A stretch of DNA of 33,980 nucleotides from an uncultured Pseudomonadota bacterium. GTDB taxonomy: Bacteria; Myxococcota_A; Bradymonadia; Bradymonadales; Bradymonadaceae. The first letter of the stretch is position 1. Each line of letters opens with the position of its first letter. The notes under the pieces are model-generated. The model saw only the letters and a list, made by a program, of their open reading frames with translations, made no database searches and was not told the origin of the DNA. Location of the stretch: assembly GCA_950059285.1 (NCBI GenBank), contig CATLTV010000038.1, positions 1 to 33,980 of the forward strand, written 5' to 3'. This document shows positions 6,833 through 33,922 of this stretch, one piece after another. The translations under genes and the position numbers were made by a program.

Positions 6833-6898
6833 ACACAAAAAGTACAGGGACGAGGAAGACACAAGCTTGTGTCTTCCTCGTCCCTGTACTTTTTGTGT
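6833..6898. terminator. perfect 66-bp palindrome, end of the flgBC-fliE operon
   Basis: Two 33-bp arms meet at AAGCTT with no loop. The outer ends carry A- and T-runs. It starts 16 bases past the fliE stop and separates the flgB-flgC-fliE unit from the fliF promoter region. It is read as a bidirectional intrinsic terminator. Confidence 0.85.
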
Positions 6899-8277: not shown

Positions 8278-8321
8278 AAGAAACAAAAAGAGGGCGCACA
8301 GGCGCCCTCTTTTTGTTTCTT
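8278..8321. terminator. 44-bp inverted repeat, terminator of the hydrolase gene
   Basis: Two 20-bp arms (AAGAAACAAAAAGAGGGCGC and its complement) flank a 4-base loop. It begins 7 bases after the hydrolase stop, and both ends are A/T-rich. It is a standard intrinsic terminator that also insulates the flgB promoter. Confidence 0.85.
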
Positions 8322-9597: not shown

Positions 9598-11451
9598 ATG
9601 AGTTTACTAAAAGCTCTCTCCCCCGAGTTCTCACATGGTGTGCAGATTGAAACGTGTTACAACACACAAAGCCAACATACACGGGTACAGATACGTCAGG
9701 TACATCTCATGAACGAACTTACGATGGACAACACACAACACACAGGGTGGACCATGGACCCCGAAGGGAGCAGGGATCTTGATGATGCTCTCCGAATGGA
9801 AACCCACGAGGATGGTACTGTCACACTCCACACCTACATCGCCGCTCCAGGACTTCACCTCTCCACATCATCCCCCGCGTTCAAGCGCGCCTTTCAGAAA
9901 AGAAGCACACGTTATCTCGCAAGTGGTAAGACCGTTGCCATGCTCACGCCTGACATGGAACATCAACACAGCCTCCTGCCTGGAGAATCGCGCGAAGCGC
10001 TCTACATCTGTTGCACAATCACAGCCGAGGGAGAGCTTCTTCAGGACAAAACTCACGTCGGCTTCGTACACTTCTGCTCCTCGGCCAGATACACCTACCT
10101 TGATGCCTACGAACAGGCCAATGCACCTCACTTTGAACTTGCCCGAAAGTTTGCGCTCATGCGCATCTCATCTCGACGCCTGCGAGGTGCGCCCACCTTT
10201 GTAGACCTCGATACTGGCGAATATACTGATGAACAGGGACAGCGTATCAAGCTCGTTAAACGCGAGGAAATCATCGGACATCTCATCGTCCAGGAGGCCA
10301 TGATCGCCTCCAATGAAGCGCTCGCCAGATGGTGCGCCGAACGTGGTGTCCTCGTGATCTACAGAACGCATGATGGTCCAGAATTTGAAAATACAGAGGA
10401 AAAACAAAGCTTTGATGACTTTTTAAAGACAGCACTTGAGAATCAGGACGAGCACGCGCTGGCGCTGATTGACTCCACCTTCAGTAACCGTCTTAAACCC
10501 GCCACATACAGCGCTGAACCTGGCACCCACTGGGCACTTCGAGCCCCCATGTACATGCACGGCACAAGCCCTCTAAGGCGAGTACAGGACCTTATCAGTC
10601 AAATGCAGCTTGCAGCGTATTTGAGGCAGGCTCCGCTCCCGTTTGACTGGCATGGCCTTGTCCAGTCTGTCGATCATCTGAATAGCGCCGATGAACAGTT
10701 TGAAAAGCGCATCAAGGAACGCTTCAAGGCTCGCACAGAGAAGTTGTTTCTTGAACAATTACTTGCAGATGAAGAACTTAGCAGCAAGCAGCTACGACGC
10801 GCCATCAAATACATCCTGCGACAGGCTGGCGATGGGCTTGATATCCAGAAAGAACAGGTTCTTGAACGCCTGAGACATATTATTCAGGAGTATCAATCAC
10901 ATCCATCAGGCACCGTCCCCGTCGCATTGCTTGATGTCATCCTTGAATCATCCTGGGAACCTGCTCGCAAACTCGCCCGAGACTTCCTTGACCCACATGA
11001 CTCGGGCTGGAAACAGCTCAAAGCACACGCGCTCGCTGTACGCGGCGATGAAGAATCATCCTGGTGGCAGCTCTACTTACTTGAGCATGATCCTGTCGAA
11101 CTTCAGGAGCAGGAGCTTCGCAAGGCGCGACAGGCGGACAGACAACAACAGGAACGTAAGCGCGAACAAAAAGCACAGAAAAAACGCGCCGCTCTCCTGG
11201 AAACCTCTCCCATGGCCTGGTTCAATGATCTCAAACTTCGCCATCAGCTTGACGTGACATTCACCTATCAGGAGCTTGAAAAAGACGATCCACGTGGCCA
11301 GTGGTCAGGGACACTACTTGTAAACAAACCTGATACAGATCAATCACCTGGAAGCTTTGAAGCCTTCGATCAGAGCAAGAAAAAGGTCCGTAAACAACTT
11401 GTGCAAGACGCCCTTAACTGGTGGGATGAGTCGTTATACGATCATTCCTAG
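9598..11451 (+). CDS. RNase II/R-family exoribonuclease (RNB domain) with a C-terminal dsRBD-like domain
   Basis: The 617-residue protein has the RNB catalytic signature TMDPEGSRDLDDAL at residues 52-65. Its four acidic residues D54, D60, D62 and D63 have the spacing of the metal-binding aspartates of RNase II. The second signature is HGTSPLRRVQDL (TSPLRR at 323-328). It should degrade RNA processively from the 3' end. The N-terminal cold-shock domains of RNase II/R are missing, since the RNB motif starts by residue 52, and no S1 domain is evident. Instead a charged linker (about 510-533) leads to a C-terminal segment (about 537-610). That segment has the alpha-beta-beta-beta-alpha pattern and the SKKKVRKQLVQDAL helix of a dsRNA-binding domain. 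The ATG has only a weak ribosome site. Confidence 0.88.
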   Translation: MSLLKALSPEFSHGVQIETCYNTQSQHTRVQIRQVHLMNELTMDNTQHTGWTMDPEGSRDLDDALRMETHEDGTVTLHTYIAAPGLHLSTSSPAFKRAFQKRSTRYLASGKTVAMLTPDMEHQHSLLPGESREALYICCTITAEGELLQDKTHVGFVHFCSSARYTYLDAYEQANAPHFELARKFALMRISSRRLRGAPTFVDLDTGEYTDEQGQRIKLVKREEIIGHLIVQEAMIASNEALARWCAERGVLVIYRTHDGPEFENTEEKQSFDDFLKTALENQDEHALALIDSTFSNRLKPATYSAEPGTHWALRAPMYMHGTSPLRRVQDLISQMQLAAYLRQAPLPFDWHGLVQSVDHLNSADEQFEKRIKERFKARTEKLFLEQLLADEELSSKQLRRAIKYILRQAGDGLDIQKEQVLERLRHIIQEYQSHPSGTVPVALLDVILESSWEPARKLARDFLDPHDSGWKQLKAHALAVRGDEESSWWQLYLLEHDPVELQEQELRKARQADRQQQERKREQKAQKKRAALLETSPMAWFNDLKLRHQLDVTFTYQELEKDDPRGQWSGTLLVNKPDTDQSPGSFEAFDQSKKKVRKQLVQDALNWWDESLYDHS

Positions 11452-11541
11452 CATTGAATATTTGCCATAAAAAGCACACCTTACTCGTCATCATCAGGGA
11501 TGTAATTGCATCTCACACATGGCTTGTACTGTAGGTTTATC

Positions 11542-12357
11542 ATGCACGCACAATGGCTCCTCGACACACACATCTCCTCGGAGATACAGGGCACCGATCA
11601 CATCCTTGATTTTCTGGAATCCATCCTTGCACGTCAGGGATTTTCACACATTAAATCCACACACACCACGCCAGCCAGGACCATCAAGGCCAAACGCGAC
11701 GGCGTAAAAGTTACCATGCTTGTGAGCCACGAAGCCCCCAACGACAGGCACTCAAAAAGTGCCTGGAGGCTTCATGTCAAGCTCTCAAAAACCCTGTTCG
11801 CATCTGATTTCGGAATCAGAGAATATCAAAAAAAAGCGTTACAAGACATACAGATAGCTATCGATGAACATATCCACACGGTATCATTGACCAGCTACTC
11901 CCCCCAACCCCAGCACCTCAGTGTGCGCGACCAGACAAAGCTGGCGATCTTCTATGGAAGAATCCTCGCCACTGACACCTCTGACTGGCCCGAATTACAG
12001 AGCGATGAGTCGCTGACACCAGACCAGTATCAACGCTGGATCTCGTCTAACATCACATGGCCAGAGACCGAACACTGGGGCCTGTACCGCATTGGTTACC
12101 GCAGCGCTCAGGCCCCAATCACATCCATCGCGCTTATTTATCATCCCTCGGTACAGGGCAGGTGGTGGTTTGAAGAAGGCTACGCTGACTTTGAAAATGC
12201 AGGCCACATACCACTTGATATCCAGGCGATGGCCTCATTCCATATCCCTGAAGAACACATGAACGAATGTGACACACTGGCCGAAATATTTGGTGATGAG
12301 GTGCTCGCAGAATGTGCATGGCAAGTCGTATCACTCGTTGACCTGAAACACACATAA
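11542..12357 (+). CDS. hypothetical protein
   Basis: I do not recognise the family of this 271-residue protein. It is soluble, with no signal peptide or membrane helix. It is rich in Trp and His toward the C-terminus (WRLHVKL, ITWPETEHWGLYRIGY, RWWFEEGYADF). It follows the RNB nuclease by 90 bases on the same strand and may be co-transcribed with it. The start is uncertain: ATG at 11542 is chosen, but TTG at 11506 with GGGA upstream would add 12 residues. It converges with the next gene at a gap of 11 bases, with no terminator hairpin visible between them. Confidence 0.7.
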   Translation: MHAQWLLDTHISSEIQGTDHILDFLESILARQGFSHIKSTHTTPARTIKAKRDGVKVTMLVSHEAPNDRHSKSAWRLHVKLSKTLFASDFGIREYQKKALQDIQIAIDEHIHTVSLTSYSPQPQHLSVRDQTKLAIFYGRILATDTSDWPELQSDESLTPDQYQRWISSNITWPETEHWGLYRIGYRSAQAPITSIALIYHPSVQGRWWFEEGYADFENAGHIPLDIQAMASFHIPEEHMNECDTLAEIFGDEVLAECAWQVVSLVDLKHT

Positions 12358-14312: not shown

Positions 14313-14386
14313 TCATGCGAAGAAATTAAACGAAAAGTTCAAGTTTCGTACGAAACTTGAACTTTTCGTTTAATTTCTTCGCATGA
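14313..14386. terminator. perfect 74-bp palindrome, end of fliNOPQ
   Basis: Two 37-bp arms meet without a loop at TTCGTACGAA. It lies 34 bases past the fliQ stop and before the fliR promoter. The stem is AT-rich compared with the other palindromes, so its strength as a terminator is less certain than its symmetry. Confidence 0.75.
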
Positions 14387-17318: not shown

Positions 17319-17394
17319 CGGCGAAAATAAAAAAGATGTGGGAGGCGAGCTTCGCTAGCGAAGCTCGCCTCCCACATCTTTTTTATTTTCGCCG
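17319..17394. terminator. perfect 76-bp palindrome, end of the fliL-fliM operon
   Basis: Two 38-bp arms meet at GCTAGC. This is the longest loop-free palindrome in the window. The GC-rich core is bordered by AAAAAA and TTTTTT. It begins 17 bases past the fliM stop, so fliN is transcribed from a separate promoter. Confidence 0.85.
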
Positions 17395-21557: not shown

Positions 21558-21621
21558 GAGAGGACACGCGACGAGGCGAGGAATTGGCTAGCCAATTCCT
21601 CGCCTCGTCGCGTGTCCTCTC
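21558..21621. terminator. perfect 64-bp palindrome, end of fliD
   Basis: Two 32-bp GC-rich arms meet at GGCTAGCC with no loop, starting 14 bases past the fliD stop. On the fliD side the next bases are low in T (CATTGC, then TTTTTTTAATG), so a short gap precedes the U-run. Confidence 0.8.
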
Positions 21622-24985: not shown

Positions 24986-25045
24986 TGAAGGAAAAGAAGA
25001 AGGAGGTTTGATGTGCACATCAAACCTCCTTCTTCTTTTCCTTCA
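24986..25045. terminator. perfect 60-bp palindrome between convergent genes
   Basis: Two 30-bp purine/pyrimidine arms meet at TGTGCACA with no loop. It lies 20 bases past the thioesterase stop and 31 bases from the converging FHA-gene stop, so it serves both directions. Confidence 0.85.
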
Positions 25046-30122: not shown

Positions 30123-30494
30123 GGCTTCAAGGTTCATAGCTTTCAACTGTTTGAAAAATAAGAAAATTCTTCTTCCAAAGAATGCATACCACTCCACATG
30201 TACGATCTGTATTAAAGCGTTTAACACCTCACCCTTTCGTTTTGAATCCAGGATGGTAGATGTGGAGTGCAGCATACTCGAGTGAAGAAGAACTGAAGAG
30301 AGGCCAGAGGGTGCGCACCCTCTGGCCTCTCTTCAGTTCTTCTTCATGCTCGTGAACCAAGTTCTTTTTAAACACGATTACCAGACGCGTCGATGACACA
30401 AGCTGTAGAACGCATGGGAATCCAGTCAAAAAGGCAGGTTGGAGAGACTATCACCCATGTCACACCCTATCCTCACAACCATGAGATAAGTATT
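30123..30494. other. intergenic region between flgD and flgE
   Basis: This 372-base gap holds a long-range inverted repeat, CACTCCACAT (30190-30199) and ATGTGGAGTG (30260-30269), then a perfect 64-bp palindrome, then the flgE leader. No gene is supported. An open frame from 30393 runs into flgE, but the extra residues have no match to hook proteins. Confidence 0.4.
30283..30346. terminator. perfect 64-bp palindrome between flgD and flgE
   Basis: Two 32-bp arms meet at GTGCGCAC with no loop. The GC-rich stem has no strong T-run directly outside it. It lies 160 bases past flgD and 148 bases before flgE, and shows that flgE is transcribed separately. Confidence 0.75.
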
Positions 30495-31745: not shown

Positions 31746-31785
31746 GAAATAACGTTATAACGTTATAACGTTATAACGTTATTTC
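31746..31785. repeat. AACGTT array 1 (four units, 8-bp period), 40-bp palindrome
   Basis: AACGTT occurs at 31751, 31759, 31767 and 31775 with AT between units, and the whole stretch is a perfect palindrome. It lies 9 bases past the flgE stop and upstream of the parA-RHH pair. It could be a set of operator or partition sites for the RHH protein; a terminator role is less likely given the low GC. Confidence 0.8.
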
Positions 31786-31815: not shown

Positions 31816-31857
31816 GAACAGCCTAAACCTTTTATTTATAAAAGGTTTAGGCTGTTC
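31816..31857. terminator. 42-bp inverted repeat between flgE and parA
   Basis: Two 20-bp arms (GAACAGCCTAAACCTTTTAT and its complement) flank a 2-base loop. It is the likely flgE terminator and insulates the parA promoter. Confidence 0.75.
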
Positions 31858-31879
31858 TATTTCAATTGGCGTTGACGAC

Positions 31880-31905
31880 ATAACGTTATAACGTTATAAC
31901 GTTAT
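31880..31905. repeat. AACGTT array 2 (three units, 8-bp period)
   Basis: AACGTT occurs at 31882, 31890 and 31898 in a 26-bp palindrome, about 100 bases before parA. It has the same unit and period as arrays 1 and 3. Its position in the parA promoter region suggests autoregulation, a partition site, or both. Confidence 0.8.
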
Positions 31906-33884: not shown

Positions 33885-33922
33885 AAATAACGTTAAAACG
33901 TTTTAACGTTTTAACGTTATTT
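33885..33922. repeat. AACGTT array 3 (four units, 8-bp period)
   Basis: AACGTT occurs at 33889, 33897, 33905 and 33913. The spacer dinucleotides are AA, TT and TT rather than AT. The 38-bp stretch is a palindrome except for its central TT. It lies 8 bases past the GNAT stop. Confidence 0.8.

Follow-up and report, generated by a model that had tools for sequence, protein, structure and literature searches.

A 617-residue protein encoded in a chromosomal flagellar gene cluster of an uncultured Bradymonadaceae bacterium (GTDB Myxococcota_A) is probably a diverged chromosomal member of a group of RNB 3′-to-5′ exoribonucleases associated with mobile elements, in which a dsRNA-binding domain (dsRBD) would hold duplex RNA for the RNB catalytic domain. 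The group itself, made up of RNB enzymes in which dsRBDs replace the usual handles for single-stranded RNA, looks like an undescribed bacterial family that resides mostly on plasmids and phage-like DNA. The chromosomal protein, here called P0001, looks like a lone chromosomal offshoot of it. The DNA studied is a stretch of 33,980 nt from contig CATLTV010000038.1 (assembly GCA_950059285.1), referred to as the window.

Domain architecture of P0001

Features of P0001 and of the open reading frame that follows it in the window:

9598-11451, + strand: P0001, putative RNB-dsRBD exoribonuclease, 617 aa, ATG start (ORF translation, Pfam, alignment, model)
9598-9741, + strand: short N-terminus of P0001, residues 1-48, with no cold-shock or HTH domain (model)
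9742-10626, + strand: RNB catalytic domain of P0001, residues 49-343, with D54/D60/D62/D63, Y106, E233 and R327/R328 (Pfam RNB, alignment)
10633-11205, + strand: helical linker of P0001, residues 346-536 (family HMM, model, composition)
11206-11439, + strand: C-terminal module of P0001 with predicted dsRBD fold, residues 537-614, alpha2 beginning SKKKVRKQLVQDAL (AF2, Foldseek, VIA)
11506-12357, + strand: P0002, orphan ORF, 283 aa from a TTG, first ATG near 11542, no Pfam family (ORF and Pfam scan)

The sole Pfam match in P0001 is RNB (residues 49-343, E 4.4e-44, 151.5 bits against a gathering score of 29.3), and a scan of the organism's own genome returned identical coordinates for it. The original prediction, made from the sequence of the window, had described the RNB signatures as intact, and the translation bears this out: the aspartates D54, D60, D62 and D63 and the motif TSPLRR at residues 323-328 are all in place. 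Together with Y106, E233, R327 and R328, the four aspartates are invariant across 15 aligned rows comprising P0001 and its plasmid relatives. We map these catalytic residues onto E. coli RNase II numbering with the help of the alignment. RNase R and RNase II (TIGR02063, TIGR02062) have the same RNB core with four aspartates and the conserved Tyr, Glu and Arg, and by analogy P0001 would be expected to share their 3′-to-5′ hydrolysis. The NCBIfam models for RNase R, RNase II and exoribonuclease II match the RNB part of P0001 far below their cut-offs, with equivalog cut-offs missed at 101.7 versus 597.85 bits for RNase R and at 63.3 versus 641.9 bits.

The difference from RNase R and RNase II lies in what surrounds the core: P0001 lacks CSD1, CSD2 and S1, and has instead a helical linker and a tail of predicted dsRBD fold. 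That cold-shock domains (CSDs) and an evident S1 domain are absent had also been predicted, and both statements agree with the model. No CSD was found in the 48 residues that precede the RNB domain, of which residues 1-41 are disordered in the full-length AF2 model (pLDDT <50). Likewise, no S1 domain was found beyond residue 345, where the model is all-helical, with helices starting at residue 351, up to the alpha-beta-beta-beta-alpha module at the C-terminus. The linker is common to the RNB-dsRBD family up to about residue 482. Residues ~485-536 form a charged, low-confidence helix at the place where the relatives have their first dsRBD; a description of this segment as a basic stretch was dropped on counting 11 K+R against 11 D+E.

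Two other nucleases offer instructive comparisons. An RNase II family protein of Deinococcus radiodurans likewise lacks canonical CSDs and carries an N-terminal HTH and a C-terminal S1 domain. This short RNB protein (PDB 2r7d, 469 aa) is among the Foldseek matches of the P0001 model and matches residues 43-344 in sequence, and it differs in its HTH and S1 domains, both missing from the P0001 model. RNase III resembles P0001 in being a nuclease with a C-terminal dsRBD, and its model TIGR02191 is matched by seven of 15 proteins (the plasmid members and P0001). It has, however, another catalytic domain and another chemistry, acting as an endonuclease where P0001 is expected to be an exonuclease.

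A family of RNB enzymes ending in dsRBDs

A tblastn search of plasmids with P0001 gave 168 records with a match. The best of these are annotated as 'RNB domain-containing ribonuclease' (examples are WP_208964486.1, WP_261891862.1 and WP_181718351.1) and cover residues 53-455 of P0001, past the RNB domain, with E-values down to 1e-32. We read 14 plasmid members, four from Rhodococcus, three from Acaryochloris, two from Streptomyces and one each from Mycolicibacterium, Mycobacterium intracellulare, Gordonia, Variovorax and Pseudomonas monteilii. RNB is present in all 14, and each matches Pfam dsrm at E<=1 (best 9.9e-23). Like P0001, these proteins have the order RNB, helical linker, dsRBD; their dsRBDs are detectable by Pfam and usually number two, whereas P0001 has a single, strongly diverged one by prediction and lies in a chromosomal flagellar cluster.

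Scans with an alignment of the plasmid members added 13 further relatives. On virus-classed contigs, 80 loci were kept, 11 of them of the RNB-dsRBD kind (L129-L137, L140 and L164); the remaining loci obtain scores on the family HMM that are typical of canonical RNases, and proved to be such where they were read. On genome contigs, 80 loci were kept as well, and two of these, both cyanobacterial (L049 and L070), are of the RNB-dsRBD kind. All 13 match Pfam dsrm at E<=1 (best 4.3e-24). CSD and S1 are missing from the whole set of 27 relatives, each of which ends in one to three dsRBDs. Counted with a family dsRBD HMM at a limit of 20 bits, there is one dsRBD in 7 relatives, two in 18 and three behind a single RNB in 2, the last being the Variovorax and Pseudomonas plasmid members (L039 and L043). 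The final dsRBD stands apart from the first dsRBD position in 26 of the 27, and L129 alone stops after the first. Pattern scans with P0001 alone found nothing on genome contigs or viral contigs, nor did a search of plasmids with the P0001 tail.

Existing libraries recognise parts of these proteins. Thirteen relatives and P0001 (14 of 14) share a match to a single PHROG, which bears the name 'nuclease'; none of the models returned by Pfam, NCBIfam or PHROGs spans the whole architecture. None of 15 proteins (the 14 plasmid members and P0001) matched the 2023 PADLOC library at E<=0.1. A search of the full-text literature, whose scope leaves out most subscription journals and all of bioRxiv, found no description of a bacterial RNB-dsRBD protein. 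A cyanobacterial review gives two or three RNB proteins per genome, and dsRBD occurs there once, for RNase III (PMC10989914).

The genomic surroundings of the relatives point to mobile elements in several cases. Members are found near parA/parB on the Rhodococcus plasmids pRZP4 and pRoPD630_2 and on Acaryochloris pREC4; most other plasmid loci read have no adjoining par genes. A Terminase_6N match is present on 3 of the 11 virus-classed contigs, and ParA-type AAA_31 on none of them. It is quite possible, if not the reading that we would choose, that the role of the family is plasmid maintenance, the clearance of antisense RNA or dsRNA, or counter-defence, and that P0001 is the relic of an integrated element. 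The plasmid locations, the par neighbours and the terminases agree with a role of this kind, and the many loci without par genes speak against it. P0001 for its part is no obvious relic, as its reading frame and catalytic residues are intact and it sits within a chromosomal flagellar cluster. At the level of enzyme activity, such a role overlaps with the reading that we prefer, an RNB exonuclease served by a dsRBD.

On two Rhodococcus plasmid stretches, the RNB-dsRBD gene and parA have a 50-bp perfect palindrome with GTTCACCGCGGTGAAC between them (L279:36809-36858 and L280:26295-26344). Judged from their appearance, the Rhodococcus repeats in this position are probably partition sites.

Fold of the C-terminal module

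In the AF2 model of full-length P0001 (14 aligned sequences), the module consists of a helix at 538-548, strands at 552-559, 569-576 and 585-591, and a helix at 594-614. Residues 520-617 modelled alone (13 aligned sequences) give the same order of elements, with a pLDDT of 91-96 in the core block; the alignments of both runs held true dsRBDs, so the two models are not fully independent. The predicted topology is the alpha-beta-beta-beta-alpha that had been proposed at the outset, and neither another fold nor a hidden S1 domain appeared at the C-terminus. Foldseek searches with the whole P0001 model rank RNB enzymes first and dsRBDs next (Loquacious dsRBD1 at TMt 0.70, dsRBD3 at 0.72). With the isolated module the top matches are dsRBDs, the best at E 1.6e-3 and none at E<=0.001. 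Structural alignment with VIA-align places dsRBDs at Z 8 to 10.6 against the module. TRBP dsRBD3 aligns with 74 residues at 1.9 A (Z 10.1), and further top matches are Staufen dsRBD5, Loquacious dsRBD3 and DCL4 dsRBD2; the rows also include one ribosome hibernation factor (Z 8.0). Judged by these models, the C-terminal module looks like a dsRBD fold that is very diverged in sequence.

Two sequence features of dsRBDs can be followed in the module. The basic start of alpha2 is a main RNA contact in RNA-binding dsRBDs, and in P0001 it reads SKKKVRK, aligned with the SKKxAK of the relatives (a basic KKxxK type); this is the hallmark helix of the original prediction. The GPxH loop, also a dsRBD hallmark, is absent between beta1 and beta2, where KDDPRGQ is found. 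Among the 27 relatives, the final dsRBD has GPxH in 15 and lacks it in 12. At -3, the charge of the P0001 module stands at the bottom of what is seen in the family (-3 to +6). The acidic charge and the lack of GPxH make it possible that the module binds RNA less well or binds protein instead.

The second option can be taken further, to a module that has the dsRBD fold and acts as a type-B-like protein adaptor, recruiting the nuclease to a partner such as P0002 or RNase III. For P0001 itself we count this as a real alternative, though an unlikely one. TRBP dsRBD3, Staufen dsRBD5, Loquacious dsRBD3 and DCL4 dsRBD2 make mainly protein contacts, and their rank among the structural matches fits an adaptor, as do the charge, the missing GPxH and the orphan P0002 just downstream on the same strand. 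On the other hand, RNA-binding dsRBDs score almost equally (1di2 at Z 8.5, and Aquifex RNase III from RNase III-dsRNA complexes at Z 8.3), the basic alpha2 start is retained, and the lack of GPxH and the charge are both within what the final dsRBDs of the relatives display.

In profile comparisons the module is far less conspicuous. Pfam dsrm has no match in P0001, and the tail scores -1.8 bits against the HMMER family dsRBD HMM from which P0001 was excluded, a value reached by 1759 of 2000 shuffles. With hhalign the whole dsRBD is aligned in register, weakly (P 0.014-0.018, probability 1-3%). A full-length PSSM alignment gives the tail a score of 2.2 versus -18.5 +/- 4.4 for shuffles; none of 400 shuffles and none of 146 canonical RNase tails score as high, and 3 of 1164 real-protein windows do. 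The sequence taken by itself thus lends weak support to a dsRBD. As to the original assignment of residues ~537-610, the part that stands is the fold, from the structure prediction of residues 520-617 and the fold searches, and the part that failed is detection by a dsRBD profile. The combination of RNB and dsRBD as such is strongly backed by the family, in which dsrm matches occur in 27 of 27 relatives.

It could be argued that the tail is no dsRBD, that AF2 imposed the fold from an alignment containing dsRBDs, and that P0001 is a diverged RNB enzyme with an unrelated tail. The silence of Pfam and HMMER, an alignment depth of 13-14 sequences and the three real-protein windows would fit such a case, which we nevertheless consider quite improbable in view of the core pLDDT, the shuffles and canonical tails that fall short of the profile score, and the location of the tail at the place where a separate dsRBD closes 26 of the 27 relatives. 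Moreover, the alignment alone did not force a dsRBD fold, because residues ~485-536, which are aligned to the first dsRBD of the relatives, stayed a helix in the same run.

Probable position of P0001 in the family, and its distribution in the lineage

A family HMM from which P0001 was left out aligns residues 46-482 of P0001, as far as HMM position 432 (of 603 in all); the alignments of canonical RNases get no further than ~375. The total bit score on this HMM fails as a separator (266 for P0001, 164-282 for canonical enzymes), and membership was judged by linker coverage and by a tree. The tree comprised 76 RNB domains, 26 from the family, 49 canonical and P0001, with the truncated L134 left out. 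The canonical rows split from the family plus P0001 at 100/97, and the family without P0001 is held together at 94/90. P0001 has an end branch of 1.59 and attaches between family and canonical rows, and its nearest rows by path and by identity are family members. From these alignments we read P0001 as a deep or fast-evolving member of the family, a placement for which the RNB domain alone is no proof.

Beside the gene for P0001, its genome (441 contigs, 6.6 Mb) has one further RNB gene, which codes for a canonical enzyme of 714 aa on contig C16, with ~31% identity to P0001 over the RNB domain only. It also encodes one dsRBD protein recognised by Pfam (contig C54), presumably RNase III, and one PNPase (contig C95). 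Candidate orthologues of P0001 among 95 relatives were rejected: 71 genomes gave matches, and the loci read match in RNB only and are canonical enzymes of ~660-850 aa. The tail, residues 346-617, has no counterpart in 57 genomes of the class except a marginal 71-residue match (E 0.00996). In a scan of 377 genomes of the phylum, with three candidates scored per genome and a query alignment that includes P0001, all of the matches listed stop by model position 370 except P0001 itself (5-611). That P0001 is an ordinary diverged RNase II/R paralogue, duplicated within its lineage from the likes of the second, canonical RNB gene, is very improbable, given its missing CSD and S1 domains, the low identity confined to RNB, the tail without counterpart, beyond that one marginal match, in the 57 class genomes and the rejection of a clade with the canonical RNases of its own lineage (p-AU 0.021).

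P0001 and P0002, which follows just downstream on the same strand, both lie within the flagellar cluster. Among the 57 class genomes P0002 matches its own genome only; it is possibly a partner gene of P0001. Ranked by codon usage among 195 ORFs of the genome, P0001 comes at the 16th percentile and P0002 at the 7th, which makes P0001 mildly atypical. An insertion of both genes together is compatible with these data, not proven by them, and a horizontal arrival of P0001 is weakly supported. Further along the window, P0003 (12369-13433, - strand) adjoins fliR; it has a lipoprotein-like start, looks like a beta-propeller and gave no Pfam match at the limit used.

Long perfect hairpins in the genome

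The long perfect hairpins that the original prediction attributed to this genome do exist: a count over the window gives 11 perfect inverted repeats (arms of 20-38 nt), mostly intergenic and several of them inside same-strand flagellar runs. Among them are the following, with arms of 20-38 nt and spacers of 0-4:

17319-17394: perfect inverted repeat
14313-14386: perfect inverted repeat
6833-6898: perfect inverted repeat
21558-21621: perfect inverted repeat
30283-30346: perfect inverted repeat
24986-25045: perfect inverted repeat
1446-1487: perfect inverted repeat
8278-8321: perfect inverted repeat
31746-31785: perfect inverted repeat
31816-31857: perfect inverted repeat

In 400 kb from 20 other contigs there are 61 repeats with arms of at least 20 nt, 32 of them with at least 30 and the longest with 41, so that the whole sample of this genome holds 72 repeats with arms of at least 20 nt in 434 kb. 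By comparison, 19 genomes of its taxonomic family, sampled over 566.5 kb, hold 2, and 886 kb around canonical RNase genes at 78 other loci hold none. The listed examples have arms of 20-41 nt and loops of 0-4 nt, and extrapolation leads to about a thousand in the whole genome. For 59 of the 72 a gene pair could be assigned, same-strand in 33 cases, convergent in 20 and divergent in 6; a further 11 lie inside a crude ORF call, and the last 2 are at the edge of a contig. Their distance past the stop codon has a median of 18 nt, and the repeats resemble transcription terminators that have been lengthened into perfect palindromes. A survey of 118,019 genomes reports that perfect inverted repeats are enriched at prokaryotic gene ends (PMC13155455). 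The kind of repeat is already known, and the oddity of this genome is the density of long ones.

Several of the hairpins share the core GGGCGGCCATTTGAC (L253:19013-19088, L251:3911-3980 and L253:15045-15114), as if a repeat family had served as seed or a single recognised role were common to them. Near the contig end, palindromic AACGTT and TAACGTTATAACGTTA motifs recur (window 31746-31785, 31875-31902 and 33885-33922), which could be an operator or a repeat.

Repeats of this length are scarce where the relatives of P0001 are encoded. With arms of at least 20 nt there are 2 in 120.5 kb at the 14 plasmid loci and none at the 11 virus-contig loci (126.4 kb) or the two cyanobacterial loci (26.4 kb). 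Four plasmid stretches of 50 kb were also inspected: in the two from Rhodococcus, one of them with L035, such a repeat separates the nuclease gene from parA, and those from Acaryochloris and Mycolicibacterium have no repeat with arms of at least 14 nt. A general link between hairpins and nuclease was accordingly rejected, as the RNB-dsRBD family does not track hairpins and the sampled carriers lack them, apart from the partition-like repeats of Rhodococcus. The connection to hairpins, which had been put forward as speculation, rests on one genome, because the other sampled carriers are without long ones.

We give rather little credence to the idea that P0001, once captured from a mobile element, became a housekeeping remover of the RNA hairpins of its own genome, the two rarities having co-evolved. 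If this were true, transcripts would end in perfect duplexes of 20-40 bp, to be cleared by a dsRBD-tethered RNB exonuclease without a CSD gate. Ordinary RNase II cannot enter duplexes of 20-40 bp, and RNase III would leave stubs with 2-nt overhangs.

Proposed mechanism and significance

The usual description of an RNB exonuclease has CSD and S1 domains on either side of the RNB domain, and the way in which these enzymes gain access to structured RNA is under active study (PMC12320835). In the light of that RNase R review, P0001 is most likely a 3′-to-5′ exonuclease aimed at structured RNA, because its RNB domain has no CSDs and is followed by a linker and a module of predicted dsRBD fold. The original prediction had likewise suggested structured RNA as the target, which is a fair suggestion. 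What we observed is the architecture, the intact catalytic residues, the linker in common with the family, a dsRBD fold by prediction and the scattered distribution over plasmids and virus-classed contigs, and from these we infer how the enzymes might work. One or more dsRBDs would hold duplex RNA beside the RNB channel, which the absence of the CSD barrier would leave open. The RNB domain would then take the free 3′ end, and hydrolysis would pull the duplex apart. As natural substrates one would expect RNAs that are folded or paired and have a short 3′ overhang, for instance stubs cut by RNase III, antisense duplexes or hairpin-ended transcripts. P0001 itself may have arrived horizontally together with P0002 and subsequently lost its first dsRBD.

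RNB enzymes with one to three dsRBDs instead of CSD and S1 domains provide a comparative system for studying the entry into structured RNA, and they could serve as reagents for its digestion. In the genome of P0001, the extreme density of hairpins makes the structured-RNA hypothesis directly testable. More broadly, the RNB-dsRBD family may show by what means plasmids and large phages deal with antisense or duplex RNA.
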